Assembly: GCF_030504625.1 (NCBI RefSeq) | Contig: NZ_JAUKWH010000007.1 | Location: 1-64,000, forward strand | Reading direction: 5' to 3' | Source: Neisseria sp. MVDL19-042950 | GTDB lineage: Bacteria; Pseudomonadota; Gammaproteobacteria; Burkholderiales; Neisseriaceae | DNA: 64,000 nucleotides | Shown here: piece after piece, positions 3,333-33,690 of the stretch | How the letters are laid out: every line of letters begins with the position of its first letter | Numbering within the stretch: the first letter of the stretch is position 1 | Notes under the pieces: model-generated | Told to the model about the DNA's origin: nothing | The model's database searches: none | Seen by the model: the letters and a program-made list of their open reading frames with translations, nothing else | Translations under genes and position numbers: made by a program

Positions 3333-3773
3333 ATGTGCTTCGATTTTGAAAAAAAACATGAATTTCTTACAGGAAGTCATGGAAAAGACACATGGGTAAT
3401 AATGTATGAATCAGATTATAAAAGTAATAAATATCATTATGGAATGTATAGTGCTTTAGCTGATTTAGAAACTTGTGAGAAATCATTAAATAGTGCTAGC
3501 TGGGATCTTCTTGCGTCAGGAGGGTTACCATCATTTGTAGAACATTTAGATGAAAATGGAGAATGGATTAGAAATTATGTTGGCTATGATAACACTGACT
3601 TTGAAAGACTTATTTATCTAAGGGATTTTAAAAATATTGTAGAAGGTTATGTTGAAGTGTCAGAAGAATTTCGCTTATTTCATAATCTTTACTATGATAG
3701 TGTGAATAATAGATATTTAGATTTTGATGATTGTGGTGATTTTATTGAAGTAATAAAAATAACAAAAAAGTAG
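3333..3773 (+). CDS. Unknown protein, N-terminal fragment of a probably split gene
   Basis: 146 residues, no recognised domain. It is rich in aromatic and acidic residues; a stretch near residues 105-125 contains EEFRLFHNLYYD. Very A+T-rich codon use, unlike ychF and tyrS on either side. It ends at a TAG directly after a run of six A (3764-3769). Shifting frame there reads on as VEIR, then a TGA, then KYLMEYLSAK, straight into the next ORF. The simplest reading is one gene of about 520 residues broken by a frameshift plus one stop. Start codon is uncertain: no clear ribosome binding site. Confidence 0.55.
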   Translation: MCFDFEKKHEFLTGSHGKDTWVIMYESDYKSNKYHYGMYSALADLETCEKSLNSASWDLLASGGLPSFVEHLDENGEWIRNYVGYDNTDFERLIYLRDFKNIVEGYVEVSEEFRLFHNLYYDSVNNRYLDFDDCGDFIEVIKITKK

Positions 3774-3793
3774 AGATACGCTGAAAATATTTA

Positions 3794-4912
3794 ATGGAAT
3801 ATCTATCTGCTAAATGTAAAAATCTTATTTTATATTGGGATGTAACACTTTTTCATGAAAATCAAAAAGAATTTCATATCCACCCTTACATTAAAAATGA
3901 AGAATTAGTTTGTATTTTTAATAAAAACCATCCTAAAATATTTGATGACTCGTATTGTTCGGTATTCTATGGTAAGAAAATAATTTTTCAAGAAAAAATT
4001 CAATCTGATCCTAAAAAACATGAAAGTTTCTGTATTGCTGGAAATGATGAAAATCCCCATTTTTATTCCTGCGATAATTCAAAGTTAGCAGATAATTTTG
4101 GGCATAATCCAAATAATCCTTACTATTTGACTCCTGTTTTCTTTAAAAAAGAAGTCATGCAAAAATATTACGAGTCCGATAAATATGAGGTTCAGGATGG
4201 TTCTCTAAGGTGTCAAGGGTTATGGAGCATTCATATTGATAATGGGTTACCTAATCATGTCTCTGTATTTTTGGGTGATTTAGGTAGAGATATGCCTTAT
4301 AAAGAACAGCAGTATTGGAAGTTATTCAATGTTCCACCTGAGTCTCTTAAAATTAGCGAGGGAAGTTTTAGACGCAGTTTTTTAGGAGAGTTTGCTGATT
4401 CTAGCAGCCCGGAATTTCGATTTAAATCTGAATTTGAACAATTGAATAATAAATGGAAAGAACATTTTGGTTGGAATCTTTTTCTTCCATTATCTCAAGA
4501 AGATCAACATTTTTTTGAAAATATTAGAACACTCATTGCAGACAGCCAAAGAGAATTTGATAACGTAATTTTTGCACTGGCTAAAAGCACTATCGATTCA
4601 TTAAATGTTAAAGATATGCGGACTTTTTTGGGCAAGGATTGCAATGATGAAAGTAAATCATTACAACTTTTCGAAGAAATTTTAATTAAGCTGCATGTTT
4701 TAAATGCACTAGACAAAGTGAATTTTTTGCGCAATATTCAAAATTTACGCTCTTCAAGTTCTGCTCACAGGAAAGGCAAGCAGTTTGAAAAGTTAAAAAG
4801 TCAAACAGTTTTGTTACAAAACAAGCAATATCAAAATTATGTTGAATCTGTTTTAAATACATTTGCTGAATTATGCAAGGAACTCATAAAGCATTTAAGT
4901 TTCGAAACTTAA
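3794..4912 (+). CDS. Unknown protein, C-terminal part of a probably split gene
   Basis: 372 residues, no signal peptide or membrane segment. Residues 220-370 look all-helical, with the segment NLRSSSSAHRKG near residue 320. I do not recognise a family with certainty; large A+T-rich soluble proteins carried alone between core genes are often accessory or defence cargo, but that is only context. The annotated ATG has no convincing Shine-Dalgarno sequence, which fits an internal Met of a longer ancestral protein (see 3333-3773). Ends 53 bp before tyrS with no clear terminator. Confidence 0.6.
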   Translation: MEYLSAKCKNLILYWDVTLFHENQKEFHIHPYIKNEELVCIFNKNHPKIFDDSYCSVFYGKKIIFQEKIQSDPKKHESFCIAGNDENPHFYSCDNSKLADNFGHNPNNPYYLTPVFFKKEVMQKYYESDKYEVQDGSLRCQGLWSIHIDNGLPNHVSVFLGDLGRDMPYKEQQYWKLFNVPPESLKISEGSFRRSFLGEFADSSSPEFRFKSEFEQLNNKWKEHFGWNLFLPLSQEDQHFFENIRTLIADSQREFDNVIFALAKSTIDSLNVKDMRTFLGKDCNDESKSLQLFEEILIKLHVLNALDKVNFLRNIQNLRSSSSAHRKGKQFEKLKSQTVLLQNKQYQNYVESVLNTFAELCKELIKHLSFET

Positions 4913-20712: not shown

Positions 20713-20987
20713 TGGGGATTAAGGTACCGGTAAGAGATTATCGTATTGTATATCGGCAGAAATTGTTATCAAGATTTGGAGGTATTTACATTGCGGACTG
20801 CATAGCCGATGAAACGGGGGCAGGTTGGAAAGGAATGCAGCTATGCCGAGGTTTTCATTCTTCAACTAAAAGAAGATTTTGCTTGGAAGCAGATGGCAAT
20901 TCGCTTTATCCCAAAGTTGAATTTTTCTGATTTTGAAAGCAGCGGCGAGAATAAGAAGATAAAGAGATGTTTGATTTCCGTACATAG

Positions 20988-21019
20988 AAAAAAGCCTGAA
21001 CAATTTGTTCAGGCTTTTA
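20988..21019 (-). terminator. Original terminator of the tRNA-Asn gene, now left of attL
   Basis: AAAAGCCTGAACAA / TTGTTCAGGCTTTT stem whose U tract lies on the minus-strand side. It sits in the same relation to attL as the hairpin at 33201 does to the intact tRNA, so it is the pre-insertion terminator of that tRNA. Confidence 0.65.
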
Positions 21020-21023
21020 AATC

Positions 21024-21068
21024 TGGCTCCCCGACCTGGGCTCGAACCAGGGACCTGCGGATTAACAG
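21024..21068. repeat. attL: 45-bp direct repeat of the tRNA-Asn 3' part
   Basis: Identical over 45 bp to 33234-33278, covering the CCA end, T-arm, variable loop and anticodon arm up to the GTT anticodon of tRNA-Asn. After 21068 the sequence departs from the tRNA. This is the left boundary of the island. Confidence 0.9.
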
Positions 21069-21266
21069 ACCAAAGATAAAAATATAACTAATTGATAATG
21101 CTAAGTAGTGATGTTTGCACATTCAGTCATGTACAGCACTTATCAGCTTATTTTAGGTACAAATAAGACGCACCCAATGAACGAAAATTTAAGCATCTTT
21201 TTTTATATGTTGGATGTTTAAATTTTCGTTTTTTTCTTTCCATAATCGTTGTGAAAGGAGCATCAT

Positions 21267-21818
21267 TTGAAAAAAATTCTGCTGGTACTGCTGCTGGCGC
21301 TGACCTCCTCAAAAGCCACTGCGGCAGGTATCTACCCTGAATACCAAGTGCTGATTGAAAAACACGTAACATTGCAGGGTTTAGATAAAAACCTTGTCTG
21401 GGCGGTGATATATGCGAAAAGTCGAAGCAATCGTAATGCTACATCTCATAAAAATGCCCGTGGATTGATGCAGGTGATTCCGCCGACAGTAGCACGAATG
21501 GGTGTGAATCCGAAGCATCTATACGACCCTGAGCAAAACATCATTGCAGGTACACGTTACTTGTGCTTCTTGAATGATCGTTTTAACAGCAATTTTGACC
21601 ATATTGTTGCTGCATACAACGTCGGTGAAGGCGCAGTTGATAAGTACCACGGCATTCTGCCGTATCGCGAGACATGCAAGTATGTTGTGTAAGTGCGCAA
21701 CCGTTATGCGCGGTTGAGCGGAAACGCCTTTTTTGCCACAACACCGATAAAAGCAGTTGCCAAGGCTGCCGATAAAGGCAATGAATATCTGCTGTTGTGC
21801 GGGTTGAAGAGCCGCTAA
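21267..21818 (+). pseudogene. Conjugation-type lytic transglycosylase (VirB1/TrbN-like), inactivated
   Basis: TTG start behind GAAAGGAG, signal peptide (MKKILLVLLLALTSS...ATAAG), then an SLT domain: LVWAVIYAKSRSNRNATS, NARGLMQVIP, NIIAGTRYL and VAAYNVGEGAV. In the family the segment reads AESxxNP; here the catalytic Glu is Lys (AAA for GAA) and Pro is Arg. The frame stops at a TAA at 21690-21692 in the middle of the conserved YVxxVRNRYARLSG block and continues open behind it to a second TAA at 21816. Such enzymes open peptidoglycan for type IV secretion. Both the substitution and the stop indicate loss of function. Confidence 0.75.
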
Positions 21819-21961
21819 AAGTTTACGCTTCTTGGGATGTATTTGAAGAATTTTAGTTTTGCCTTCGTGCAATGTCTTCCGGTTTGATGCCGGTTTTTTT
21901 ATGTCTGCCGCGATTGTGCGGCTTTTCTTTTTGGAGATTAGCATGATTTTAATTAGCCCGA

Positions 21962-22186
21962 ATGCCCGTCAATGGTGCAAAGCCGTTGCGCTCGGCTCAA
22001 TTTACAATGGCTGCTAACGGTTTGAGTGATCTTGAAAGTGGATTGAGAGATTTCTTTACTAGTTTCTATGGCGTCTATACGATTATTGCTTATTTTATAA
22101 TTTTGTTTATGATAGTTCACATCTTTTTTGATCTTATTTATAGATATTTAAAATTATTTTTATCAAAGGAAAAAGCATGCCGCTGA
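21962..22186 (+). CDS. Small membrane protein next to the relaxase, possibly frameshifted
   Basis: 74 residues with one long membrane segment (VYTIIAYFIILFMIVHIFFDLI). It overlaps the relaxase start by 10 bases (KEKACR against ATGCCGCTG). The N-terminal part reads poorly; an ATG at 21943 with a good ribosome site (TTGGAGATTAGC) opens another frame (ARQWCKAVALG) that looks like a signal peptide start and would join this frame near 22000 after a 1-base shift. It may be the remnant of a pilin-like or mobilization protein. Function not recognised. Confidence 0.4.
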   Translation: MPVNGAKPLRSAQFTMAANGLSDLESGLRDFFTSFYGVYTIIAYFIILFMIVHIFFDLIYRYLKLFLSKEKACR

Positions 22187-23221
22187 ACTGCAATATCGAC
22201 GATTGGTTTTTAGGCTATAAAACCCGCACCGTAAAAGGCAGAGACACCGGGTTGTCATTCAGCAATGGTTGCAACAAACCTATTAAGCCGCTCAAGCCCG
22301 GCAGCGGCTTGGCCAACCTGCAGGCGGCGCTCAAACACTCGGAAGTAATGGTCAAAATACCGAAGCGGCTCAGTAATCACTCAAAAGGTATGCGCAGGGT
22401 ACGTAACCATTTAGATTACGTCTCCTGCAACGGCGAAATCACACTGGAAACTCAAGACGGCGAAAAGCTCAACGGTAAAAAAGCTATAAACGACCTAACC
22501 CGAGACCGGCATAAGCTCAATATTCCCGAAGAAAGAAAATATCGTGAAGCGTTCAATATCATCCTGTCCATGCCTGGACACATTGACCCTGACGCAGTAT
22601 TGAATGCCGCCCGAAAATTTGCCGCCAAACAGTTCGACGGCCACCAATACGCTTTCGGGCTCCATCACGAAGCCCTCTGCCCCGGCGAGCCGAAGCATCC
22701 GCATGTGCACTTGTGTGTATTGATGCGTGACGAGTTTGGCTAACGGCTCAATCCGCATAAAAATGACTTATTTGAATGGCGCGCCCACTTTGCCTAAAGG
22801 CTGCGTGAAGAAGGAGTTCAATGTGCAGCCACTAGGCGACAACACCGTGGTCAAACACAAAAGCTTGAAAACAGCCTGCTGAGAGCCATGAGCCAACGTG
22901 GTGTATTGGACAGTGTGCATAAACAGTAAGCCATTGAGCTGATTAAAGAGGTTAAAAACAGCGATCGCCCAAAGCATCCTTTTTTGAACTATGCAGACGT
23001 GTGGCATCATTGTGTCGGAATACGAGGCCATCGCCAAAGAGTTGTACAAAATGGGGCACAAATCGGAAGCCAAAATTATCAGCGGCTTGGCCAAAGAAGT
23101 TGCCGGGCAGGGTTTTGATACTAAGGCGCAAATGCAATTTGATCAAACTATCGGAAAGAATCATGCTATGAGTGCGCTGATACAAGAGAGTGGAATAGAT
23201 GGAGCAGCAAGAGAGCATTGA
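22177..23221 (+). pseudogene. Relaxase/mobilization nuclease, broken by stops and a frameshift
   Basis: The open N-terminal 188 residues end with the histidine triad region of mobilization relaxases (FGLHHEALC...HPHVHLCVLM). A TAA interrupts at 22741 just after DEFG, a second in-frame TAA at 22795; similar coding sense continues in shifted frames (SLLRAMSQRGVLDSVHK with another stop, then YEAIAKELYKMGHKSEAKII up to 23221). Relaxases nick oriT and pilot DNA in conjugation; this one lacks a continuous C-terminal part. The region 23,222-23,335 after it is very A+T-rich and holds no gene. Confidence 0.75.
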
Positions 23222-23335
23222 AAAAATAGCTAAACAAAGAATATAATAATCCATATAATTTAAAAAAATTAATATTATTTTACGTAAAATACCTTGCAAA
23301 GATTTAAATAGATGCTATTATCAAACAGCATTGAT

Positions 23336-23354
23336 ATTAATGATAATTATTATT
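23336..23354 (+). promoter_or_regulatory. Fur-box-like sequence upstream of the RiPP precursor
   Basis: ATTAATGATAATTATTATT agrees with the 19-bp Fur consensus (GATAATGATAATCATTATC) at 15 positions and overlaps a possible promoter (TTGATA at 23331, TATTAA about 17 bases later). It lies about 100 bp before the precursor ATG. Because the whole stretch is A+T-rich, a chance match is possible. Confidence 0.35.
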
Positions 23355-23456
23355 ATTAATATTATTATTATTTAATATAATTTTAAAAAATTATCGTTAT
23401 ATGAAATGCAATATTTGTTTGATTAAACTTTAATCTATTGAAAGGTAGGTCATATC

Positions 23457-23567
23457 ATGAAATACGGTAAAGTTCTCTCTAAAAGCATTAAAGCCCTGAA
23501 AACTCTGCAAGCTAATCAGTCACGAGGCAATTGCGCTTCTTGTAACAACTCTTCTATTAACGCTTAG
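23457..23567 (+). CDS. Azole-RiPP (TOMM) precursor peptide, 36 residues
   Basis: ATG 23457 follows GAAAGGTAGGTCATATC. The peptide has a basic amphipathic leader (MKYGKVLSKSIKALKTLQ) and a short tail rich in heterocyclizable and polar residues, NCASCNNSSINA: two Cys (26, 29) and three Ser (28, 32, 33). The leader resembles that of microcin B17 (G-x-V-L-S...A-L-K pattern). It is directly followed by a hairpin and then by McbB-, McbC- and McbD-like genes, which fixes its role. The expected product has Cys, and perhaps Ser, turned into thiazole or oxazole rings and the leader removed by a protease encoded elsewhere (TldD/E in the microcin B17 case). Extent of modification and cleavage site cannot be read from sequence. 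Confidence 0.85.
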   Translation: MKYGKVLSKSIKALKTLQANQSRGNCASCNNSSINA

Positions 23568-23573
23568 CTAATC

Positions 23574-23607
23574 AATCCCCCTAATGCGCTTTCGTATTAG
23601 GGGGATT
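23574..23607 (+). terminator. Attenuator hairpin between precursor and modification genes
   Basis: A 12-bp perfect stem (AATCCCCCTAAT / ATTAGGGGGATT) extended by three more pairs around a CTTT loop, starting 7 bp after the precursor stop. The following ATTATTTATC is only moderately T-rich, so partial read-through is expected. This would give more precursor mRNA than enzyme mRNA, as between sagA and sagB in streptolysin S operons. Confidence 0.75.
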
Positions 23608-23651
23608 ATTTATCAAAATTATTGTTCAACTAAGGATATGGGCGACAATTT

Positions 23652-24476
23652 ATGTACTGCATACCAAACTTCGGCTTATCACGATTCGATGGTGGGTTGT
23701 TAATACAGACTCCGAAAGGCTTTTTTGAAATAACCAACAGTAGAGTATGTGAAATTATTTTGTCTTTGCCCCGTAGCGGTGGACTAATAGAGGATGTTGA
23801 AGTTATTCAACTTTTGGAAAGGGGTGAAGAAAATGATAGTCAAGAAGTTATGTCTTATTTGGTAGAGACATTAGGTATCATAGCTAAAACCAACATATCA
23901 AATAAATCTTCTTTAGTAATGACAACTTCTTCAATATGGGCTGATGTTGCCCGTTATTTGGATTTTGATGTCATAGAAAAGATGGAGGTTCAGCCTGGAA
24001 AAATTAATGTAATGATTTTTGAAGGTGCTCCTGAGGAAAGAATTATTGATGCGGCTATACAAGAATTATCTGAGAATGATCAATTAATCATTGGTTTTTG
24101 TGCTCGAAGTAATTTCGTAATAAGCTCCACATGGTTCCGTAATTCGGGATTACCATGTCCTCTTTGCACTGTTGATTTTTCTTTAGATAGAGTTTTTTTT
24201 GATCCGCATGATGCAGGAATGGGACTTTCGGATGTGTATGATTTTGTGAGGAGCTTAAATGTAAAAGAGCCAAGCATTTCTCTTCGAAAAACAGATATAG
24301 CTTTCTTATTGCGGTATGTTAAACAGTATATAGAGTCCTTATCAGGAATCGGTTTCGGTGCTTTCTCTCCTTTTGATCCTTTATTTACATCAGTGATTGA
24401 TTTGGCAGAATTAAATCGTCAATTGGTACGTATTCCTCTTTCACCTCTTTGTAATTGTATTAAACATCAAATTTAA
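23652..24476 (+). CDS. McbB-like E1-superfamily zinc protein of the TOMM synthetase
   Basis: 274 residues. The first 85 residues have the strand-and-winged-helix look of a RiPP recognition element (IQTPKGFFEITNS, then helices to LVETLGIIAKT). The C-terminal part carries paired cysteines CPLC (169 and 172) and CNC (267 and 269), the pattern of the structural zinc site in McbB/ocin-ThiF-type partner proteins. Such proteins bind the leader peptide and hand the core to the YcaO protein; they do not themselves use ATP. First gene after the hairpin; next gene starts 29 bp later. Shine-Dalgarno is weak. Identification rests on position and the Cys pattern as much as on sequence. Confidence 0.75.
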   Translation: MYCIPNFGLSRFDGGLLIQTPKGFFEITNSRVCEIILSLPRSGGLIEDVEVIQLLERGEENDSQEVMSYLVETLGIIAKTNISNKSSLVMTTSSIWADVARYLDFDVIEKMEVQPGKINVMIFEGAPEERIIDAAIQELSENDQLIIGFCARSNFVISSTWFRNSGLPCPLCTVDFSLDRVFFDPHDAGMGLSDVYDFVRSLNVKEPSISLRKTDIAFLLRYVKQYIESLSGIGFGAFSPFDPLFTSVIDLAELNRQLVRIPLSPLCNCIKHQI

Positions 24477-24505
24477 AGTTTAAATAGTAAATAAGGTAAA
24501 GAATA

Positions 24506-25291
24506 ATGCATGAGCTTGAATTAAATTTGGCTGCTGATTATATCGATCAATCAATCTTCAAAGATAATTATATTTTCCATTCTCGTAGCCATAATCGTGA
24601 AAATAAATATTTGGCTGTTGTACCTCGGCCTATGACTTATCTAGGTGTTGAACATCTCAAACTTTTAGAGTTTCCGGAACATTATTTTGGTGGGCAAATA
24701 TTAGAAAGAAATGTAACTGATTTTTCTCCATTAATTGAAAGAAAGCCTTCAGCAACGTTCTTTAGAAATGATCAGAAAATGACTTATAAGCAATTGATGA
24801 CTCTTTTGTCACAAGCATTTGGAGAATCTAATTCTGATCTTCATACGCGGCCTTACCCTAGCGGAGGAGGTATGTATAGTGGGCAAGTAATTTTATATGC
24901 AAAAGCTATAGATGGATTAGATAAGGGTAGTTATCATTTCTTACCTAAATCTCATAAACTAGAGCGATTGAATGCGAAATCAGAAGAAGTGATAGAAAAG
25001 CATTTATTCCTTGGGGCAAATGAAAAATTTCTAGATTATTCTTTCTTTATTCTATATTCAATAATGCCAGTATTTACAATAGCAAAATATGGAATGAGAG
25101 GATATCGCTTATCTTGTATTGAAATAGGCTCAATGTATCAGGCGCTAATTATGAAGTCTGAAAAAATGGGGTTGAGATCTAGAGTATGGGGTGGCTTCAA
25201 TGATGAACAATTATCACTCACTTTAGGGGTTGATCCTCGTGTGGTGTGGCCGGTTGTATGCCACTTGGTTGGTTGGGAGAATAAAGAATGA
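24506..25291 (+). CDS. SagB/McbC-type FMN-dependent azoline dehydrogenase
   Basis: 261 residues, nitroreductase fold. FMN-binding RPYPSGGGMYSGQ (115-127), then AKYGMRGYRLSCIEIGSMYQA (split; 193-213) with the Lys-Tyr pair (194-195) reported as important in TOMM dehydrogenases, and a C-terminal GGFNDEQLSLTLGVDP (FxDxxlxxxLGlDp pattern). It oxidises azolines to aromatic azoles, which implies that the product contains thiazoles or oxazoles rather than only azolines. Start preceded by TAAGGTAAAGAATA. Its stop overlaps the YcaO ATG (ATGA), so the two proteins are translationally coupled. Confidence 0.88.
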   Translation: MHELELNLAADYIDQSIFKDNYIFHSRSHNRENKYLAVVPRPMTYLGVEHLKLLEFPEHYFGGQILERNVTDFSPLIERKPSATFFRNDQKMTYKQLMTLLSQAFGESNSDLHTRPYPSGGGMYSGQVILYAKAIDGLDKGSYHFLPKSHKLERLNAKSEEVIEKHLFLGANEKFLDYSFFILYSIMPVFTIAKYGMRGYRLSCIEIGSMYQALIMKSEKMGLRSRVWGGFNDEQLSLTLGVDPRVVWPVVCHLVGWENKE

Positions 25292-26442
25292 TAGGTTCTT
25301 ATTTTCCGCGTTTTTATATAGTGAACTCTGCAAATCTTGATCTACCTTCGATTATAATCGGCCGCATGGGGGAGACAAAGGGAAGTACTGCAACAGGTTA
25401 TGATAGAAAAACAATTATTAGATCTGCGGGTGAGGCTTTAGAGCGGCAAGTTGGTTTTAGCCAACTGCCAATGAGTGGAATATGTAGGAAATTAAATCAG
25501 TTGGAATACCCTCTGCAGCAATGGTTTAAAACTCTTTTTGGTAGGCAAAATAAGCCAGGCACTGATGAGCATGAATTTTCTTGTGTTGAAGCCTTCCGAT
25601 TAAATGACAATAAAAAATTTATAGTACCATCTATCCCATTTACTTTATCACCACATCAAGACAATCATTTTATGCCACATCGGGACAGTTCTGGCTGCGC
25701 CATTCATAGTAACAGTGATTTGGCTCTGGAAAGTGCTGTTGCGGAATTAATAGAACGGCAAGGGTTAACTTTATTTTGGTACTTTGGCCATCTTAATCAT
25801 AGTGTGGATTTGAGTGAAGGATTTCTTAAAAAAGAGGAGTACTATGAAATATTGCCATTATTAAATTGGTATAGGTCTAATGTGAGGGCAAAAATATACC
25901 TATTTGATATATCAGTATTGCTACCATATAGAAGTATATTGGCTATATATGTAGATGAAAGTGGCCCTATCCATTTTGCTGCTGGTGGAGCGGCTAGTAA
26001 AAATGTAACTCAGGCAGTTAAAAAAGCATTAATTGAGTTATATCAAGCTTATACTTTAACTTATCAGAATGTTATTACAAAAAAAACGGAGCTTGATATA
26101 TCAGAAACTCAAGATAATCTAACAAAAGGTTATTTGCAATTTAATAACACTAAAAATGCAACTTATTTTATTAATTTAGCTATAGAAAATAATGTAACTC
26201 TAAACACCTTCTACTCTCCTCCAGAAAATGTTAAAAATATTAATGCAGTAGATGTTTTTGTACATAAGCAGGAAGTTTCTTTTGGCAAATATCTAGATTC
26301 TCTAACTTATATATCTACCTTTTGTATTCCAGGATTTCCTTGTATGACTATTGAAGGGAGTGCATCAAGGACGGAGTTGGAAGCAGCTATTTTTTTTGGG
26401 TATAACACACAGATCAATTTTGGCCCAGTCCCATTTGCATAG
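25288..26442 (+). CDS. YcaO-domain cyclodehydratase (McbD-like)
   Basis: 384 residues. The two ATP/Mg segments of YcaO proteins are present: EALER (49-53) after a Gly/Ser/Thr-rich strand, and SSGCAIHSNS...AELIERQ with ExxER at 153-157. The C terminus ends FGPVPFA, a short Pro-rich tail like the PxPxP ends that reach the active site in azole cyclodehydratases. YcaO phosphorylates the peptide amide oxygen with ATP so that Cys or Ser side chains close into azolines. It overlaps the dehydrogenase by 4 bases. The A+T-rich codon use matches its neighbours. Confidence 0.9.
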   Translation: MIGSYFPRFYIVNSANLDLPSIIIGRMGETKGSTATGYDRKTIIRSAGEALERQVGFSQLPMSGICRKLNQLEYPLQQWFKTLFGRQNKPGTDEHEFSCVEAFRLNDNKKFIVPSIPFTLSPHQDNHFMPHRDSSGCAIHSNSDLALESAVAELIERQGLTLFWYFGHLNHSVDLSEGFLKKEEYYEILPLLNWYRSNVRAKIYLFDISVLLPYRSILAIYVDESGPIHFAAGGAASKNVTQAVKKALIELYQAYTLTYQNVITKKTELDISETQDNLTKGYLQFNNTKNATYFINLAIENNVTLNTFYSPPENVKNINAVDVFVHKQEVSFGKYLDSLTYISTFCIPGFPCMTIEGSASRTELEAAIFFGYNTQINFGPVPFA

Positions 26443-26465
26443 TGAATAGCGTAAAAGGTATAAAC

Positions 26466-28097
26466 ATGAAAAACGCTCTATTTGTACTAAAGCAAGTCAT
26501 TACTTTGTTGAGTAAGAATTCTAGATTTCTTTTCTATATATCTTTTGTGCTCTTTCTGTTGGTTACAACTTTTCGTATTGTAACGCCATTGGCATTTGCG
26601 TTGATAGTGGTAGAACATAATAATATTGCTTCCGGATTATTATGGGGAGCAATTATCTATGCATCTCTATTTTTTATAACGCGATTTTTGGAAGAATTAC
26701 GATTCTCTTTTTATGTTTCTTTTGAGCAGGAAGTGCAAAAACTACTCTTGCTGAGAACGATAGATATATTCTTTAGAGTTCCATTGTCTATGCCTCAAAG
26801 TCAGTCACCAAGTGAGAATGCTATCTCTGTAGATAGAGGGGTTGGTGGGCTAAGAGATGTTTTATATAGCTTTATCTTTACACTTGCCCCCGTTGGGATT
26901 GAAGCTTTTATTATGGTTGTAATTATCGGATTTCGTATAGATTTGATTATGGCTATTTGGGCATCTTCTATTCTAATAGGTTTTATTTGGATTACTACCA
27001 AACTATCTGAGCGTACTCGTGCATTGCAAGAAGAATGGTTTTCGATGGCGTCAGTAAATTATAAGATTCTCTCAGAGAGCCTACGTTCTTATGAAACAAT
27101 CCGCTCATTTGAACAAAGTAAATGGGTTCGAGACAGATATGGAATTGCAATGGACTCTTTTGTAAAGAGAGTAATTGCATCTTTAAGGCCAGGCATCATT
27201 CTCGGATTTATACAGGGAATTCTTTTAACTATATTAATGGGAAGTACAATTAGTTTTGTGCTTACTTCAGATTTACAGATAAATGAAAAAATCGCAAGCA
27301 TTATATTAATTAATGGGCTTCTATTACAGATGGTATCACCCCTTCTGCAGTTTTCTGGTGCGTATAGGGTTTTTACATTAGGGCTTTCTAGTGCGCGTCA
27401 GCTTGTAGAGCTTATCAATACTCTCCCCGCACAGGCAAAAATTGCACATATAGAATATGAAGGTGAAGAGGAATTCAAAATATCAAATCTTATTGTTAAG
27501 CATAATGAAAAAATCATTCTTAATATAGATAAGCTATTGATTCCCAGGTTAAAATTTATTACTATAAGTGGCGCATCTGGTTCAGGTAAATCTACACTAG
27601 CAAGATGCCTTGCGGGCTTGAATGAGTATGAAGGTCGAATATATTCGAAACAAAAAACGGATCGTATTTTTTTTATGACACAGGAAGTTCATGTATTTGA
27701 TACAACAGTTGAAGAAAATATTTCAATGGGGTTGCCTGTCGAAAACAGTAAATTTTTTTGGGCTCTAGTGCATGCAGGAATTAGTGAAGAGGAATATAAA
27801 TCATTAGAAAGCCGGGGGGTTGGTGAAGGCGGCATTAATGTGTCAGGGGGGCAGCGGCAGCGTATAGGCATAGCTCGAATGTTATATCATGAAGCTGAAG
27901 TTATGATATTTGATGAGCCTACTTCAGCTCTTGATGAAGTCTCTGCTTATAAGGTAATCGATACTTTATTAGAGCTTTCAAAAGAAAGAACATGTATTGT
28001 TGTTACACATGATTCTCGATGCGTACAGGTATCTGACATTAATTTTCAAATAAAAAATGGGGTTGTTGTAAACCAACTTAACATGACTTCAGGATAA
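26466..28097 (+). CDS. ABC half-transporter (permease plus ATPase) for export of the modified peptide
   Basis: 543 residues from ATG 26466, which has AAAAGG 7-8 bases upstream; a GTG at 26442 is in frame but overlaps the YcaO stop. Six membrane segments over about 20-310, then an ATPase: Walker A GASGSGKST, signature VSGGQRQRIGIARM, Walker B VMIFDEPTSALDE and the switch His in VVTHDS. No peptidase C39 domain, so it does not cut the leader. As a half-transporter it should work as a homodimer. It replaces the separate McbE and McbF of microcin B17 and probably also provides producer immunity, since no McbG-like gene is seen. Confidence 0.88.
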   Translation: MKNALFVLKQVITLLSKNSRFLFYISFVLFLLVTTFRIVTPLAFALIVVEHNNIASGLLWGAIIYASLFFITRFLEELRFSFYVSFEQEVQKLLLLRTIDIFFRVPLSMPQSQSPSENAISVDRGVGGLRDVLYSFIFTLAPVGIEAFIMVVIIGFRIDLIMAIWASSILIGFIWITTKLSERTRALQEEWFSMASVNYKILSESLRSYETIRSFEQSKWVRDRYGIAMDSFVKRVIASLRPGIILGFIQGILLTILMGSTISFVLTSDLQINEKIASIILINGLLLQMVSPLLQFSGAYRVFTLGLSSARQLVELINTLPAQAKIAHIEYEGEEEFKISNLIVKHNEKIILNIDKLLIPRLKFITISGASGSGKSTLARCLAGLNEYEGRIYSKQKTDRIFFMTQEVHVFDTTVEENISMGLPVENSKFFWALVHAGISEEEYKSLESRGVGEGGINVSGGQRQRIGIARMLYHEAEVMIFDEPTSALDEVSAYKVIDTLLELSKERTCIVVTHDSRCVQVSDINFQIKNGVVVNQLNMTSG

Positions 28098-28107
28098 GCC
28101 AGCATTC

Positions 28108-28632
28108 CTATCCCATAGCGGACAAGCTGGCGACATTGATTTTTACCCCCAGCTTAAACGGCATCAAGCAATACGCAACCAAGTCCGAAATCAAATTCAG
28201 CAAGAAATCTGTATAAGAACGGTGCCGCGTATGCTCTATTTGGCAAAGGTTTTTCAACTCACCAAATACCGATTCGATCACACTGCGCTTTTGCAGTAAC
28301 CCTAGCTCAAACGGCGTTTTATCCTTTTGTTTCATATTCTTTTTCTTCCCCGTTACCAAACGAATGCCATATTCGCTTTGCAGCCATTGAGTCAGCTCCT
28401 TACCTAAATAGCCCTTATCGCCAACAACAATGCCACAATATCTTTCAAAGCATGGCGGTCATTGACATTACCCGGGGTTAACCAGATATCGACAAGTGCT
28501 TCTTGATGGTTGATAAGAGCATGAATTTTGAAGCCACAGAGCCAAGCCATACTACTTTTACCGCGCCGGGTGCTGCCTGCAAAAACACGAAGGCCTTACC
28601 GGTGTCAGTGTGGTAATTATTGCATCGGAAGT
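28108..28632 (-). pseudogene. IS982-family transposase remnant
   Basis: Minus-strand coding sense in three frames. The C-terminal 83 residues are open and hold the family block KRSVIESVFGELKNLCQIEH and TRHRSYTDFLLNL. Upstream, after a frameshift near 28430, follow VGDKGYLGKELTQW and, in another frame, FAGSTRRGKSSMAWLCGFKI and LTPGNVNDRHAL. Beyond 28560 only a degenerate LPMQ/CHN segment with stops remains, and the N-terminal third is missing. It begins 11 bp after the ABC gene. Not capable of transposition. Confidence 0.8.
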
Positions 28633-28658
28633 TTACTCGTCCTGCCCGCCTGCAGACC

Positions 28659-28857
28659 AATAGCAAAGCAGAACGCGTTATCTGTACGCTGCTGGAAATG
28701 AGGCATGAAAAGACAGCCTTTACTGACAGTGGACACAGAAAAAAGGAGTTGTGCCGCTTTATTAATTACTATAATACTGTTTAAGCCTCATTCAGGACTA
28801 CAAGATGATACACCTTTTGAGGTCTTACAGGCTTATTTTTCTCAACCTGTTGTGTAA
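28659..28857 (+). pseudogene. IS481-type transposase, C-terminal scrap
   Basis: About 66 residues of plus-strand coding sense: NSKAERVICTLLEM, HRKKELCRFINYYNTV, then after a 1-base shift at 28783 KPHSGLQDDTPFEVLQAYFSQ and a stop. This is the end of an rve-type (IS481) transposase. The rest of the element is absent. It adjoins the IS982 remnant. Confidence 0.7.
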
Positions 28858-28965
28858 ACAACGCGGTTATTTTCTACATATAAGATTATGGCAGCATGTC
28901 ACAAAATACCTTTTAACAGATAAAATATGCTTAATTTCAATTGCTAAGAAATTAACAGAGGAATT

Positions 28966-29207
28966 ATGTGTACTCTTGCGGAAAAAGATGCCTTGATCGA
29001 GCGCATAGCATCTGTTCAAGCGCTTATTGCCCGTAAAACACCGCGTACTGGTGTGAACATACTCCTGACCAAAAACGGATTGTAGCGTTACGCTGCCACC
29101 TTTATGCTTCATTGTCTGAAGATATTAGCTTTGAGGACGTGAAAGATGAATGTAATGCACTGCATCAAAGATATTCTACCATGCCTAAGCAGAAGATGTG
29201 TGCATAA
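28966..29207 (+). pseudogene. Antitoxin of the epsilon/zeta-like pair, frameshifted
   Basis: Reads MCTLAEKDALIERIASVQAL... in the first frame to a stop at 29085, but coding sense clearly continues in the next frame from about 29055 (HTPDQKRIVALRCHLYASL ... NALHQRYSTMPKQK) to TAA at 29205, whose last base is the first base of the zeta ATG. The all-helical, roughly 80-residue protein directly before a zeta toxin gene fits the epsilon antitoxin position. A single-base change near 29050 disrupts it. Confidence 0.65.
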
Positions 29208-30120
29208 TGACATCAAGGCAGGAGCAAGCATCATTTGAAGCGATTTGGGACGAATTGACGGTGGAGTTGGAAGTTCGTCCTTCTGCATTTCCGAAAGGGT
29301 TTGTTCTGGGCGGCCAGCCTGAGGCGGGTAAATCACGTCTGGTGCCTTGCATTAACACAGAAATGAACGGTAATCTGATGATTATCAATGGCGACGAATT
29401 CCGCCGTTATTATCCCGACTTTGACGCTATACAGGCACAATACGGCAAAGATGCTCCTAAACACACTGCAGAGTTTTCCGCAAAAATGACCGAGCTCGTG
29501 CTTTGCACGAACAATATAACGCGTCAATCGAAGTCACTTTCCGTACTACTGATGTACCGATGGACACGCTGGACAAAATGCACGAACACGATTATCAAAC
29601 CGCCGTGCACATCCAAACAGTACCGGCTGAAGTCAGCTGGCAAAGCATCCTAGAACGTTACGACAACATGCTTAAAATCGGTGAAACGCCGAGATACACC
29701 GACAAAGCCCATCACGATTTGGTTGTAGATTTATTGTCGGATAATGCAGATGTGGTGTTTGCATCCAGCAAAGTTGATTCATTCAAAGTGTATTCGCGTG
29801 AAGGTTTGATTTTTGATGACCGTATTCACCCAAACAGTAAGCCCAATACGGCCATAGATGCAGAACTATACCGCAACAGTCGGCAGCTAGAAGTCTTGGA
29901 GACAAACTACCGGGAAAGCTACCATCTGTTTTCTGATATGCAGAAACTTGTCGTGAAAGAATCTGAAAAAATCATCAATGATTTGCCACTGGCCGAGCAG
30001 GTGCAGGCTAAAATCTATTTATATTCCGGCCAGCTTACCCAATTGCAGCACACCCAATTATCTCAACAAAGACCGTCTGAACAATCTACCGAATCCCTTG
30101 ATGTAGAAATCGAGTGCTGA
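29207..30120 (+). pseudogene. Zeta-type toxin (UDP-GlcNAc kinase family), frameshifted
   Basis: The first frame (29207-29506) has the zeta P-loop GGQPEAGKS and the NGDEFRRYYPDFD segment; it then loses frame near 29500. The second frame (open from 29503 to 30120) continues with LHEQYNASIEVTFRTTD, PAEVSWQSILERYDNM and a Gln-rich tail. A one-base loss in GAGCTCGTGCTTTG explains it. Intact zeta toxins phosphorylate UDP-N-acetylglucosamine and block wall synthesis; gonococcal plasmids carry such systems. Here neither toxin nor antitoxin is intact. The tail contains a one-mismatch DUS. Confidence 0.78.
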
Positions 30121-30183
30121 CCGCTCACACTGCCATTCCTGACTACAACAACCAACCTGATTAAAAAATCCCGCCAGAGGGAG

Positions 30184-30259
30184 CAAGATAAAAACGGGCG
30201 TTGTGGTTCACAGGCTGCCGCAGGCACCGGAGAAGTCACATAAGTCTGGTTTTATCTTG
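30184..30259. other. Possible oriT region: inverted repeat near plasmid-type genes
   Basis: CAAGATAAAA (30184-30193) and TTTTATCTTG (30250-30259) are perfect inverted arms around 56 bases containing smaller G+C-rich repeats. The segment 30,121-30,530 has no open frame and differs in composition from both sides. Relaxase nick regions often show such arms, but no known nic consensus is recognised. Confidence 0.3.
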
Positions 30260-30536
30260 GAGGCGTGGGGGGCGTTTCGGTCGAGCTTAGTGAGACTGGA
30301 ACGGGGTTGCGGCGGGATGGTTTTCACTATTTTTTGAATATGGCCCGCCCGTTGACGGCCGTCTTTGCCCCTTAAAATCAAAATTTACTCACAATAATTT
30401 ACACTTCTCATGAAGATACAGCGTATAAAATATATTGTTTTTAAGCAACAATAAGGCAAAATTGACTATCTTCCAGGCGGTTCAGTGGCAATGGATACCA
30501 TTTTCACACGGTCATATTTGTGGTGTGATAGTTCTA

Positions 30537-30564
30537 TTCAGACGGCCTGAAGGCCGTCTGAAAA
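30537..30564. repeat. Inverted DUS pair inside the island
   Basis: TTCAGACGGCCTGAAGGCCGTCTGAA is palindromic. It is the leftmost consensus DUS within the island; all of the element to its left lacks one. Confidence 0.8.
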
Positions 30565-30717
30565 TCAAAAGACAATCTTGTTTTCTCGGCAATATGTACT
30601 AATCACTGCATCCAAATCACGCAACGTAGTAACGGCCTTACTGTTGATACTTATAGTAGTTGCATATCGCGTTAATCTGATACGTCACTTCTCAAAACGA
30701 CCAGCGTGTGCCGATGA

Positions 30718-31089
30718 ATGGTGGTCAAGCATTGGATGATTGCCTTGCCGGTTTGGCGCAAACGCTGCGAGCAATCTGTAGTGTGGCTGAACGGCCATAA
30801 AGGTGAGGTGAAAAATGGTAATAAATCTTTTCAAGACTTCAAAATTTACAAAGACAGCCAACAGCAAATTATCGGTATTGTGCATATTCCCAATCGGAAT
30901 CCGGATACATTCGGCAAGGATATTCAACGCATGACTGAACTGAATCTGACATTTACCGAAGTCGACGCATTATCCGAATTCACACTGATGCCCCACCAAC
31001 GCCTACGCACAGTAAGACGCGATATTTACGAACAACTGAACAATATCACCTTCTTGGCTACCGTCAAGGTATCCCATGAGCAGGCATGA
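30718..31089 (+). CDS. Unknown plasmid-type protein, probably frameshifted at its N terminus
   Basis: 123 residues as opened from ATG 30718. Residues 30-123 read like a real soluble protein (KSFQDFKIYKDSQQQIIGIV, then KDIQRMTELNLTFTEVDAL, HQRLRTVRRDIYEQLN), but the first 25 residues do not. An ATG at 30714 in another frame gives a more natural start (MNGGQALDDCLAGLAQTL) that stops after 28 codons, so a frameshift near 30790 is likely. Family not recognised. Its end overlaps the next gene's ATG (31076), typical of mobilization operons. Confidence 0.4.
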   Translation: MVVKHWMIALPVWRKRCEQSVVWLNGHKGEVKNGNKSFQDFKIYKDSQQQIIGIVHIPNRNPDTFGKDIQRMTELNLTFTEVDALSEFTLMPHQRLRTVRRDIYEQLNNITFLATVKVSHEQA

Positions 31090-31457
31090 TGTAGAAGGCA
31101 TAATTGGCGAAGTCTTCGCCGTAACCGGCGTAAAACTGACTGCTGATGCAGCAGCAATCTGTTCCGACGGTCTTACAGTCGTTTGAGAAACGCCAGGACG
31201 AAGCACGGGAAGTTTTTCTGCATCAGTTGGTCATTTATGAACAGAACATCACCGCTACTGCTGAGCTGCTGCAGAAAACGGATTTGCAGCAGGCTGAAAT
31301 CGAAGAGAAGCTGTTTGGCAGCATCAGCCAACGGATGAATAAAGACACCGAGCAGCGGAATCATGCATTTTTAGGCCGTCTGAAAGGCTATCTGATAGCC
31401 GCCTACGTGGCTTGGGCGGTGACTGGGTTGCTGATGGCGGCTGCGGTTAAATTGTAG
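31076..31457 (+). pseudogene. Small membrane-anchored mobilization-type protein, frameshifted
   Basis: ATG 31076 opens MSRHDVEGIIGEVFAVTGVK and runs to a TGA at 31184; coding sense continues in the next frame (SFEKRQDEAREVFLHQL, a coiled-coil region, then a C-terminal membrane segment GYLIAAYVAWAVTGLLMAAA) to 31457. Together about 125 residues, in the style of small accessory proteins of mobilizable plasmids. A consensus DUS lies inside the coding sequence at 31374. Family not recognised. Confidence 0.45.
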
Positions 31458-31466
31458 GAGCTTGAT

Positions 31467-31547
31467 ATGGCCAATTTGAAAAATGACAGTCGGTTTGAGC
31501 AAAAGATGCTTTGGGGCGGCTATGAACAGCTGATAGCCAAGCCTTGA
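31467..31547 (+). CDS. Very small ORF, 26 residues
   Basis: ATG 31467 with TAGGAGCTTGAT in front. Encodes MANLKNDSRFEQKMLWGGYE and six more residues. Perhaps the surviving start of a truncated plasmid gene, since the ribosome site is good but the product is tiny. No function proposed. Confidence 0.3.
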   Translation: MANLKNDSRFEQKMLWGGYEQLIAKP

Positions 31548-31705
31548 GTATTGGCCGTTAAGCAAAGTCATTTGCTTCAAAAATGCAGTGTGTGCGGTCA
31601 ATTCAGCTTATAAACGAGCGAGCACCAGATGGAGTCGGCGTATGATTCTGCATTTTTTAAGCAGGGCTAGATTGGTGATTGAATTTTATCAGAAGGAGGG
31701 CAGAC

Positions 31706-31909
31706 ATGCTGATTGACAACACAACGGTACGGGTGAACCCATCATTTAGACCGTCTGAAGATAAGCTACCCGCATTACAGAATAATTCCGATGCAGACCG
31801 AAGCAGGCAAATATCATTGCCTGCTTCGGTCTGCATTAGCAAACACAAGTATCTGATGCTGGAGCCGCGTCTGAAACGTTACCAAATCGTCAAGCGGCTG
31901 GTGGAATGA
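31706..31909 (+). CDS. Unknown 67-residue ORF containing a perfect palindrome
   Basis: ATG 31706 behind AGAAGGAGGGCAGAC, an excellent ribosome binding site. The start (MLIDNTTVRVNPSFRPSEDK) and end (LMLEPRLKRYQIVKRLVE) look protein-like, but the middle is encoded by a 20-bp perfect inverted repeat (31791-31836), suggesting that a fold-back sequence was inserted. Lies just before the excisionase remnant. No family recognised. Confidence 0.35.
   Translation: MLIDNTTVRVNPSFRPSEDKLPALQNNSDADRSRQISLPASVCISKHKYLMLEPRLKRYQIVKRLVE
31791..31836. repeat. Perfect 20-bp inverted repeat with 6-base loop
   Basis: ATGCAGACCGAAGCAGGCAA, loop ATATCA, and the exact reverse complement. No T run follows on the plus strand, so it is not an ordinary terminator. 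It is unrelated to the DUS. Confidence 0.85.
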
Positions 31910-31952
31910 CTGGAAATAGCACCATTTACGGTGTTTGAAGAGGAGGCCGGAT

Positions 31953-32158
31953 ATGAAAACCTATAACGTTGAAGAAGTTGTCGAATACTGCAAATACCAC
32001 GCATAAACAATAAGAGAGTATATCTGCGCGGGTAAGCTGATAGCGAGCAAGCCGAGGCGCGGATACTGTATCAGACAGTCTGCCCTTGACGTATTTTTGA
32101 ATCAACTCGAAAATGAGCAGGTGCAGGCATTACTCGAAAGCAGGAGTGAAAAATTATG
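31953..32158 (+). pseudogene. Excisionase-like HTH protein with an internal stop
   Basis: ATG 31953 after GAGGAGGCCGG. Reads MKTYNVEEVVEYCKYHA, a TAA at 32004, then TIREYICAGKLIASKPRRGY, IRQSALDVFLNQLE and on into the integrase start. This is the helix-turn-helix domain of excisionase/DNA-binding proteins (HTH_17 type). The normal stop also seems lost, since the frame runs on over the integrase. Located right before the integrase, as in many tRNA-integrating elements. Confidence 0.65.
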
Positions 32159-33200
32159 CCTAGAAACAACGATGGATTATACCAACGCAACGGTAGATTC
32201 TATATTGACATCTGGTCGCCAAGCGGCGAGCGCATTAGACGCTCTGCCGGCACCAAAGACTGCAAGCAAGCGCAACAGCTCCGCGATAAAATAGCGCATG
32301 AGCTGTGGCAACAGGAGCATATCGGTATTAAGCCGAAACGGATGTGGGACGAAGCAGCAGTAAAGTGGCTTCAAGACATGAACGGCAAAAAAAGCATTGA
32401 TACTGATATTAGCCGATTAAGACACTTAACCGGATTGAGAGGACTGTTTTTAGACGCCTTGACGCGGGAAGTGATTATGAGTGTGGTTGATGCTTTGCCA
32501 TGCGGCAACGGCACCCAAAATAGATATATCGCACTGATACGTGCCATTCTGTACAAAGCCCGTGATGAATGGGAATAGATAGATAAAGCGCCGACATTGA
32601 AACAGTTGAAGGAAAACACGCAGCGTATCCGCTGGCTGAAGCCTCAAGAAGCCTCACGGCTGCTTGAGCATTGTCTGACAACCATTGGCGGGAAATGGCT
32701 GCATTCAGCCTCTATACGGAGTTACGGCAAAGCAATGTGTTTGGACTGAAGTAGGTGCAAATCGACCTGTTGCGAAAAATTGAATGGATTTATCCCGATG
32801 AAGCCAAAGCAGATAAAGTAATCGGCATCTCGCTGAACGATTCTGCTATCAGCATTTTACTCAACAGGCAGGGTAATCACGACGAGTATGTATTTATCAA
32901 TATTCATAACCGCGTGATAACTGGCCTGAACAGTAAAGTATGGAGGCAGGCACTTCAGAAAGCGGGTATTCAGAATTTCCGCTGGCATGACCTGTGCCAC
33001 ACGTGGGCAAGCTGGCTGGTTCAATGTAGCGTTCCCTTGGTTGATTTGAAGGAAATGGGTGGCTGGGAGAAGCTGGACATGGTGATGCTCTATGCCCACT
33101 TGGTCACAGAGCATCTGTTGCCGCACGCAGGCTTGTTAGATCAGGTTGGTAACTTTGGACATAAAACGGATACAAGAGCCGGCAAGGTGACCAGAGAAAA

Positions 33201-33226
33201 AAAGCCTAAACGCTTGTTTAGGCTTT
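33201..33226 (-). terminator. Element-borne terminator of tRNA-Asn
   Basis: AAAGCCTAAAC / GTTTAGGCTTT stem with GCTT loop, followed on the minus strand by a T run. It lies 8 bp from the tRNA 3' end, replacing the displaced original at 20988. Confidence 0.75.
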
Positions 33227-33233
33227 GGAAAGA

Positions 33234-33278
33234 TGGCTCCCCGACCTGGGCTCGAACCAGGGACCTGCGGATTAACAG
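33234..33278. repeat. attR: 45-bp direct repeat inside intact tRNA-Asn
   Basis: Identical to attL at 21024-21068; marks the right end of the island. The crossover lies within the tRNA 3' half and restores a complete gene. Confidence 0.9.
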
Positions 33279-33309
33279 TCCGTCGCTCTACCGACTGAGC
33301 TATCGGGGA
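33234..33309 (-). tRNA. tRNA-Asn (GTT)
   Basis: 76 nt including CCA. Acceptor TCCCCGA / TCGGGGA, D-arm AGCTCAGTCGGTAGAGC, anticodon GTT in ACTGTTAATC, T-arm CCTGG-TTCGAGC-CCAGG. It is the integration target of the island; the intact gene is regenerated at attR. Confidence 0.97.
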
Positions 33310-33319
33310 AGAAGCGTGC

Positions 33320-33347
33320 ATTATAGCGTTGTTTGAAAATGTGTCAA
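33320..33347 (-). promoter_or_regulatory. Sigma-70 promoter for tRNA-Asn
   Basis: On the minus strand TTGACA (33342-33347), 16-base spacer, TATAAT (33320-33325), both perfect, ending 10 bp before the tRNA. It lies outside the island, so it is the native promoter. The stretch 33,348-33,690 beyond it is A+T-rich and shows no gene. Confidence 0.9.
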
Positions 33348-33690
33348 CGGTTATTTGGGAAAGGAAAGTGAATAAATTAGTAATATTTTGAATTATAAAT
33401 TAATTTATTTTGAAATGTGAGCGAAGTTAGTCGTGCTATGGTACTGACAGCCCGATTGGTAAATCTGTCGAACTGCTAGGTATAGGCAATTTAACTCATT
33501 GCAGATACAAAAATCATCTATCACTAAGTAAGCAGGCGGCACAATGCGGAGACATACTGCCAATGAAAATTTGGCAAAGCTCGCAAATAATCGGATGTTA
33601 CGGTTGTTGCAATAAAAAGGAAAAATCGGGTGGAAAACGCTTGGTCGAAGTGCCGGCAGATTAATGGCGAAAGCGTTTGAGGCCGTCTGA

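Follow-up and report, generated by a model that had tools for sequence, protein, structure and literature searches.

A putative klebsazolicin/phazolicin-type azole-peptide gene cluster in a genomic island of Neisseria

Introduction

Klebsazolicin, from Klebsiella pneumoniae subsp. ozaenae, is the product of the klpACBDE cluster, which is described as encoding three enzymes for azole formation together with a pump (PMC6783444). Ser1 and Gln2 of the peptide form an amidine reported to be needed for activity (PMC7136475), and the motif given as required for this ring is X-X-(S/T)P (PMC6783444). Contacts with 23S rRNA are reported for thiazoles 7 and 10 and for residues S1 and S9 (PMC8183687). Streptamidine builds its amidine from His1 and Leu2, and Ser3 has been proposed to take a direct part (PMC8442711). 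Klebsazolicin and microcin B17 (MccB17) are reported to be matured by TldD/E, encoded outside both clusters (PMC10885120), and to require SbmA for uptake by E. coli (PMC10128002). The PhzE pump is reported to raise resistance to phazolicin more than 100-fold (PMC6783444). Few linear azole peptides that block the ribosome have a solved binding mode; those in the literature examined are klebsazolicin and phazolicin.

Several clusters homologous to that of klebsazolicin are credited to Metelev et al. 2017 (PMC6783444), and the Neisseria and Pseudovibrio clusters described below may be among them. PMC4603692, PMC8442711 and PMC9576775 mention neither genus in their main texts. Parts of PMC11278768 name azole-peptide cluster families in lung bacteria and draw no link to Neisseria there, and the titles and opening lines of abstracts in the literature searched report no azole peptide of this kind from Neisseria. 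Described here is a cluster on the klebsazolicin/phazolicin side in a Neisseria, with an unusual core. The reading preferred, at a probability of roughly 0.55, is that it encodes a klebsazolicin/phazolicin-type linear azole peptide with the ribosome as its target.

Results

The window, a 64-kb stretch of the 2.44-Mb genome of Neisseria sp. MVDL19-042950, carries five open genes in a row on the plus strand. The first encodes a 36-residue precursor peptide, MKYGKVLSKSIKALKTLQANQSRGNCASCNNSSINA (23457..23567). It is followed by genes for a McbB-type E1-like partner of 274 aa with an RRE-like N-terminus (KlpC-type, 23652..24476), a SagB/McbC-type FMN-dependent azoline dehydrogenase of 261 aa (KlpB-type, 24506..25291) and a YcaO/McbD-type cyclodehydratase of 384 aa (KlpD-type, 25288..26442). 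The last gene encodes an ABC half-exporter, a single fused protein of 543 aa if read from the ATG at 26466 (26466..28097) or of 551 aa if read from the GTG at 26442. The families were confirmed and the catalytic motifs are intact, in agreement with the first-pass annotation, which had described a genomic island of Neisseria with an intact cluster of the azole-peptide (LAP/TOMM) kind; the cluster is very probably one for azole-peptide biosynthesis. Kinship of the 274-aa protein with McbB, which that annotation had treated as decisive, is borne out by fold, the sequence score lying below the family cut-off. No further YcaO gene was found in the host genome. A reading of the locus as a defence system was rejected: the three enzymes have no PADLOC family, and the exporter's 8 matches resemble general ATPase matches.

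The precursor can be divided into a putative leader of residues 1-19 (23457..23513, plus strand), in which YGKVL is the putative recognition motif, and a putative core of residues 20-36 (23514..23564, plus strand), NQSRGNCASCNNSSINA. The cleavage site between them is tentatively placed by the register with klebsazolicin. The candidate azole residues are C26, C29 and S32, corresponding to core positions 7, 10 and 13. The [FY]G of the leader motif is also found in related precursors: among 31 of the 80 loci from the dehydrogenase scan described below, a tally by eye gave 19 with a small Cys/Ser/Gly-rich frame and an FG leader, 8 with an LFD-type leader, all from Legionella, and 4 with no clear candidate.

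A dehydrogenase-alignment scan of 84,980 species, each represented by one genome, confirmed 125 of 160 stretches. Among the best 80 of these 125 loci, one stood out, with the dehydrogenase of Pseudovibrio denitrificans JCM 12308 (NZ_BAZK01000047.1, locus L010), which is 52% identical over 256 residues. The five genes of L010 are in the same order as in the window, the E1-like proteins being 45%, the dehydrogenases 52%, the YcaO proteins 46% and the exporters 51% identical. Its precursor, starting at the ATG after AAAGGGGAG, is MSNKFGNTIAKKMHSIKTRYSNQSQNNCASCNNSVGCQNNS (L010:3562-3684), so that a syntenic cluster does have a conserved peptide of precursor size, the second point on which the annotation had rested its case. 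Aligned by the NQS register, the two cores agree at 11 of their first 13 positions, a value equalled by none of 20,000 shuffles, and the codons differ at 6 of the 11 shared residues. The two cores have NQSxxNCASCNNS in common; position 4 is R in the window and Q in Pseudovibrio, and the C-terminal part also varies. The leaders share at most five identities without gaps, although both have [FY]G near the N-terminus.

A hairpin with a 15-pair stem lies between the precursor and synthetase genes (23574..23607, plus strand; z -4.73) and is possibly an attenuator or mRNA-stability element. L010 has a hairpin at the corresponding site, but it is weaker and not significant (z -1.70; 12 of 200 shuffles fold equally well). 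The terminator scan accepted no T run after the window's hairpin, and promoter-like sites were fewer than in shuffles. Iron regulation was considered on account of a Fur-box-like stretch at 23336 (15/19) and rejected: 41 of 2,000 Markov null sequences score as high, and in DNA so rich in A+T the resemblance is too weak.

The genome collections searched contained one genome per species. Syntenic copies in other Neisseria, which the first-pass annotation had suggested seeking, did not appear: among 82 Neisseriaceae genomes, the only one with a YcaO match was the window's own, and the same was true for McbB. Matching genomes numbered 1 of 399 at the order level and 3 of 369 at the class level, the two besides the window being weak. 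A YcaO profile search of the phylum matched 6 of 398, the other five weak and partial. With the Pseudovibrio YcaO as query, 9 of 87 genomes of its family matched, namely itself and eight with weak partial matches. A YcaO-only scan of genome contigs confirmed none of 53 pattern stretches. Plasmids gave no match to the McbB-like protein; YcaO matched 140 of 72,556 plasmid records, all below 60% identity, and the two examined both carry MccB17-type clusters. A phage or viral origin was rejected, as YcaO and the dehydrogenase had no relatives in viral_contigs (single-protein queries, detecting close relatives) and the Pseudovibrio YcaO had none in the phages collection.

Other loci from the scan had features of their own. 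Eight from Legionella (L019, L023, L025, L027, L028 and L030-L032) have McbB- and McbC-type and mostly also McbD-type genes, with short precursor-like frames that contain runs of 4-5 Cys (e.g. SLSSCCCCCTAA) after an LFD-type leader. L007/L018, from a gammaproteobacterial MAG, has McbB- and McbC-like genes, a frame judged by eye to be TfuA-like, and two ABC transporters; McbD had no match there. Loci L021, L033, L037, L038 and L043 (Cupriavidus, Comamonadaceae, Ramlibacter, Achromobacter) encode very Gly/Ser/Cys-rich precursors with GGSGSGSGGCGG repeats and an FG leader, and form a separate group adjoining MccB17 in the tree.

The tree of the McbB-type (B), dehydrogenase (C) and YcaO (D) proteins comprised 31 clusters: 28 of the 80 loci, two plasmid clusters and the window. 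The loci were hand-picked, with B, C and D all present, and some near-duplicates were dropped. With B+C+D combined, UFBoot support is 100 for a group that unites the window and Pseudovibrio with the Rhizobium and Phyllobacterium clusters of phazolicin type; the MccB17 clade lies elsewhere. The grouping with the phazolicin-type clusters recurs with C alone and with D alone (UFBoot 100 each) and is absent with B alone. On the klebsazolicin side this comparison consists of phazolicin-type relatives, the Klp enzymes lying outside it. Rhizobium sp. PDO1-076, cited as a phazolicin homologue (PMC6783444), corresponds to locus L024, a short contig on which no D gene was found and which is therefore absent from the tree; the tree does include Rhizobium herbae (L034), which has a similar precursor.

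The cluster lies in an island (20988-33281) whose edges are an 84-nt direct repeat, 83% identical between copies and partly of tRNA-Asn sequence. The left copy (20988..21071) contains partial tRNA-Asn sequence and the right copy (33198..33281) overlaps the tRNA-Asn gene (33234-33309, minus strand); Rfam matched tRNA alone over 20900-33500. As the first-pass annotation had noted, the cluster is A+T-rich, with a G+C content of 0.353 compared with 0.505 beyond the island. AGGCCGTCTGAA, a Neisseria uptake sequence, occurs 66 times across the window, with three copies inside the island and none in the cluster. Besides the cluster, the island carries a lytic-transglycosylase gene, a short relaxase match, a partial integrase match and a zeta-toxin gene (29198-30120) broken over two frames, each corresponding to a separate part of the Pfam model. 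A DDE transposase (PF13612) lies in two pieces directly 3' of the exporter gene (28108-28550); the cluster may have arrived together with an insertion element. The low G+C content, the absence of uptake sequences from the cluster and the broken mobility genes suggest import of the cluster, followed by decay of the mobility genes of the island but not of the five cluster genes, which are still intact. The fragmented toxin and transposase genes, together with the short relaxase and partial integrase matches, would also suit a silent or decaying cluster that makes no product, but its five open genes and intact motifs speak against this, and we give it very little weight.

Elsewhere in the window, a second small A+T-rich insertion (3333-4912; G+C about 0.32) has frames of 146 and 372 aa and is flanked by genes for a YchF-like GTPase and a tyrosyl-tRNA synthetase (named by eye).

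Discussion

The enzyme set suggests how the peptide would be made. The McbB-like protein would bind the leader through YGKVL, the YcaO enzyme would cyclodehydrate C26, C29 and probably S32, and the dehydrogenase would oxidise the rings to two thiazoles and one oxazole. Since the host genome contains two TldD/TldE family genes and this protease has a known role for MccB17 and klebsazolicin, housekeeping TldD/E would be expected to cut off the leader at or close to residues 19/20, after which the ABC half-exporter would secrete the peptide of about 17 residues and confer self-protection. SbmA had no match in the host genome (0/1), for which reason the producer may additionally be shielded by poor uptake. 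The most likely product is a 17-mer that would plug the ribosomal exit tunnel, a target suggested by the core and the tree. Carried on a mobile island by a member of a mucosal genus, the cluster would be a candidate competition factor.

The locus had been called microcin B17-like, and part of that description holds: homologues of McbB, McbC and McbD, 22-33% identical, stand in the A-B-C-D order of mcbABCDEFG behind a precursor with a [FY]GxVL-like leader motif. The order was correctly read as that of mcbA-B-C-D, but it is equally that of klpACBDE and does not discriminate between them. These features would also fit a microcin B17-like gyrase poison. However, the MccB17 precursor is Gly-rich and has 69 residues, and the window core has no Gly-rich stretch; the MccB17 clusters examined have separate McbE and ATPase genes rather than one fused exporter; and the pentapeptide-repeat immunity protein McbG has no counterpart among the frames of 23457-28097. 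With the separate position in the tree, these differences rule out identity with microcin B17 and make a gyrase poison improbable. As the core, the exporter, the missing McbG and the dehydrogenase and YcaO trees point to the klebsazolicin/phazolicin side, whose characterised members target the ribosome and not gyrase, the label microcin B17-like was too specific.

The phazolicin-type clusters (phzEACBD) also have a fused ABC half-exporter next to the cluster and, as far as the sources describe them, lack a Pro-containing amidine motif, as does the window. Their precursors are longer and positively charged, unlike the window's. In the phazolicin-type loci examined the exporter gene is upstream on the opposite strand, whereas in the window it is the last of five on the same strand, and the exporters are 23-25% identical, a level that any ABC exporters might reach. 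The Pseudovibrio cluster, itself apparently uncharacterised, differs from the window in its leader, its genomic setting and its core, which has three additional residues and, at position 16, a third Cys.

The likeness to klebsazolicin extends from the order of precursor, E1-like protein, dehydrogenase, YcaO and pump, with one discrete E1-like partner, to Q2, S3, C7, S9 and C10 of the core in the register set by NQS/SQS. Compared with the presumed full sequence of the klebsazolicin core, 10 of 14 residues are identical, and the best 13-residue match was reached by one of 20,000 shuffles; klebsazolicin itself had no match among solved structures or plasmids. The differences are N1 in place of S1, R4 in place of P4, and a core of 17 residues against 23, the nine-residue C-terminal tail of klebsazolicin, thought to serve uptake, having no counterpart here. 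Neither N-Q-S-R of the window nor N-Q-S-Q of Pseudovibrio conforms to the X-X-(S/T)P amidine motif. An amidine would still be conceivable, given the streptamidine precedent and the conservation of N-Q-S in both clusters, but the missing Pro4 is the chief doubt about the ribosome as target. Its absence from both clusters, the reported failure of amidine-less klebsazolicin to inhibit translation (PMC7136475) and the diversity of LAP targets described in PMC6783444 would all suit an azole peptide with a non-ribosomal target or a non-antibiotic role, such as a signal, metal or cell-surface function. Conservation, however, falls mainly on core positions used by klebsazolicin, and the nearest characterised relatives in the dehydrogenase and YcaO trees are phazolicin-type; we regard such a role as a serious but minority possibility.

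Within the preferred klebsazolicin/phazolicin-type reading, a more speculative proposal, which we hold only tentatively, is a 'minimal klebsazolicin' lineage of Neisseria and marine Pseudovibrio. Its peptides of 17-20 residues would retain the ribosome-binding part with azoles at 7, 10 and 13, would have an N-Q-S ring made without proline or be active without a ring, and would enter cells independently of a tail. A near-minimal core that shares 11 of 13 positions between very distant hosts but varies at position 4 and in its C-terminal part makes it directly testable which features of klebsazolicin serve ribosome binding and which serve uptake.
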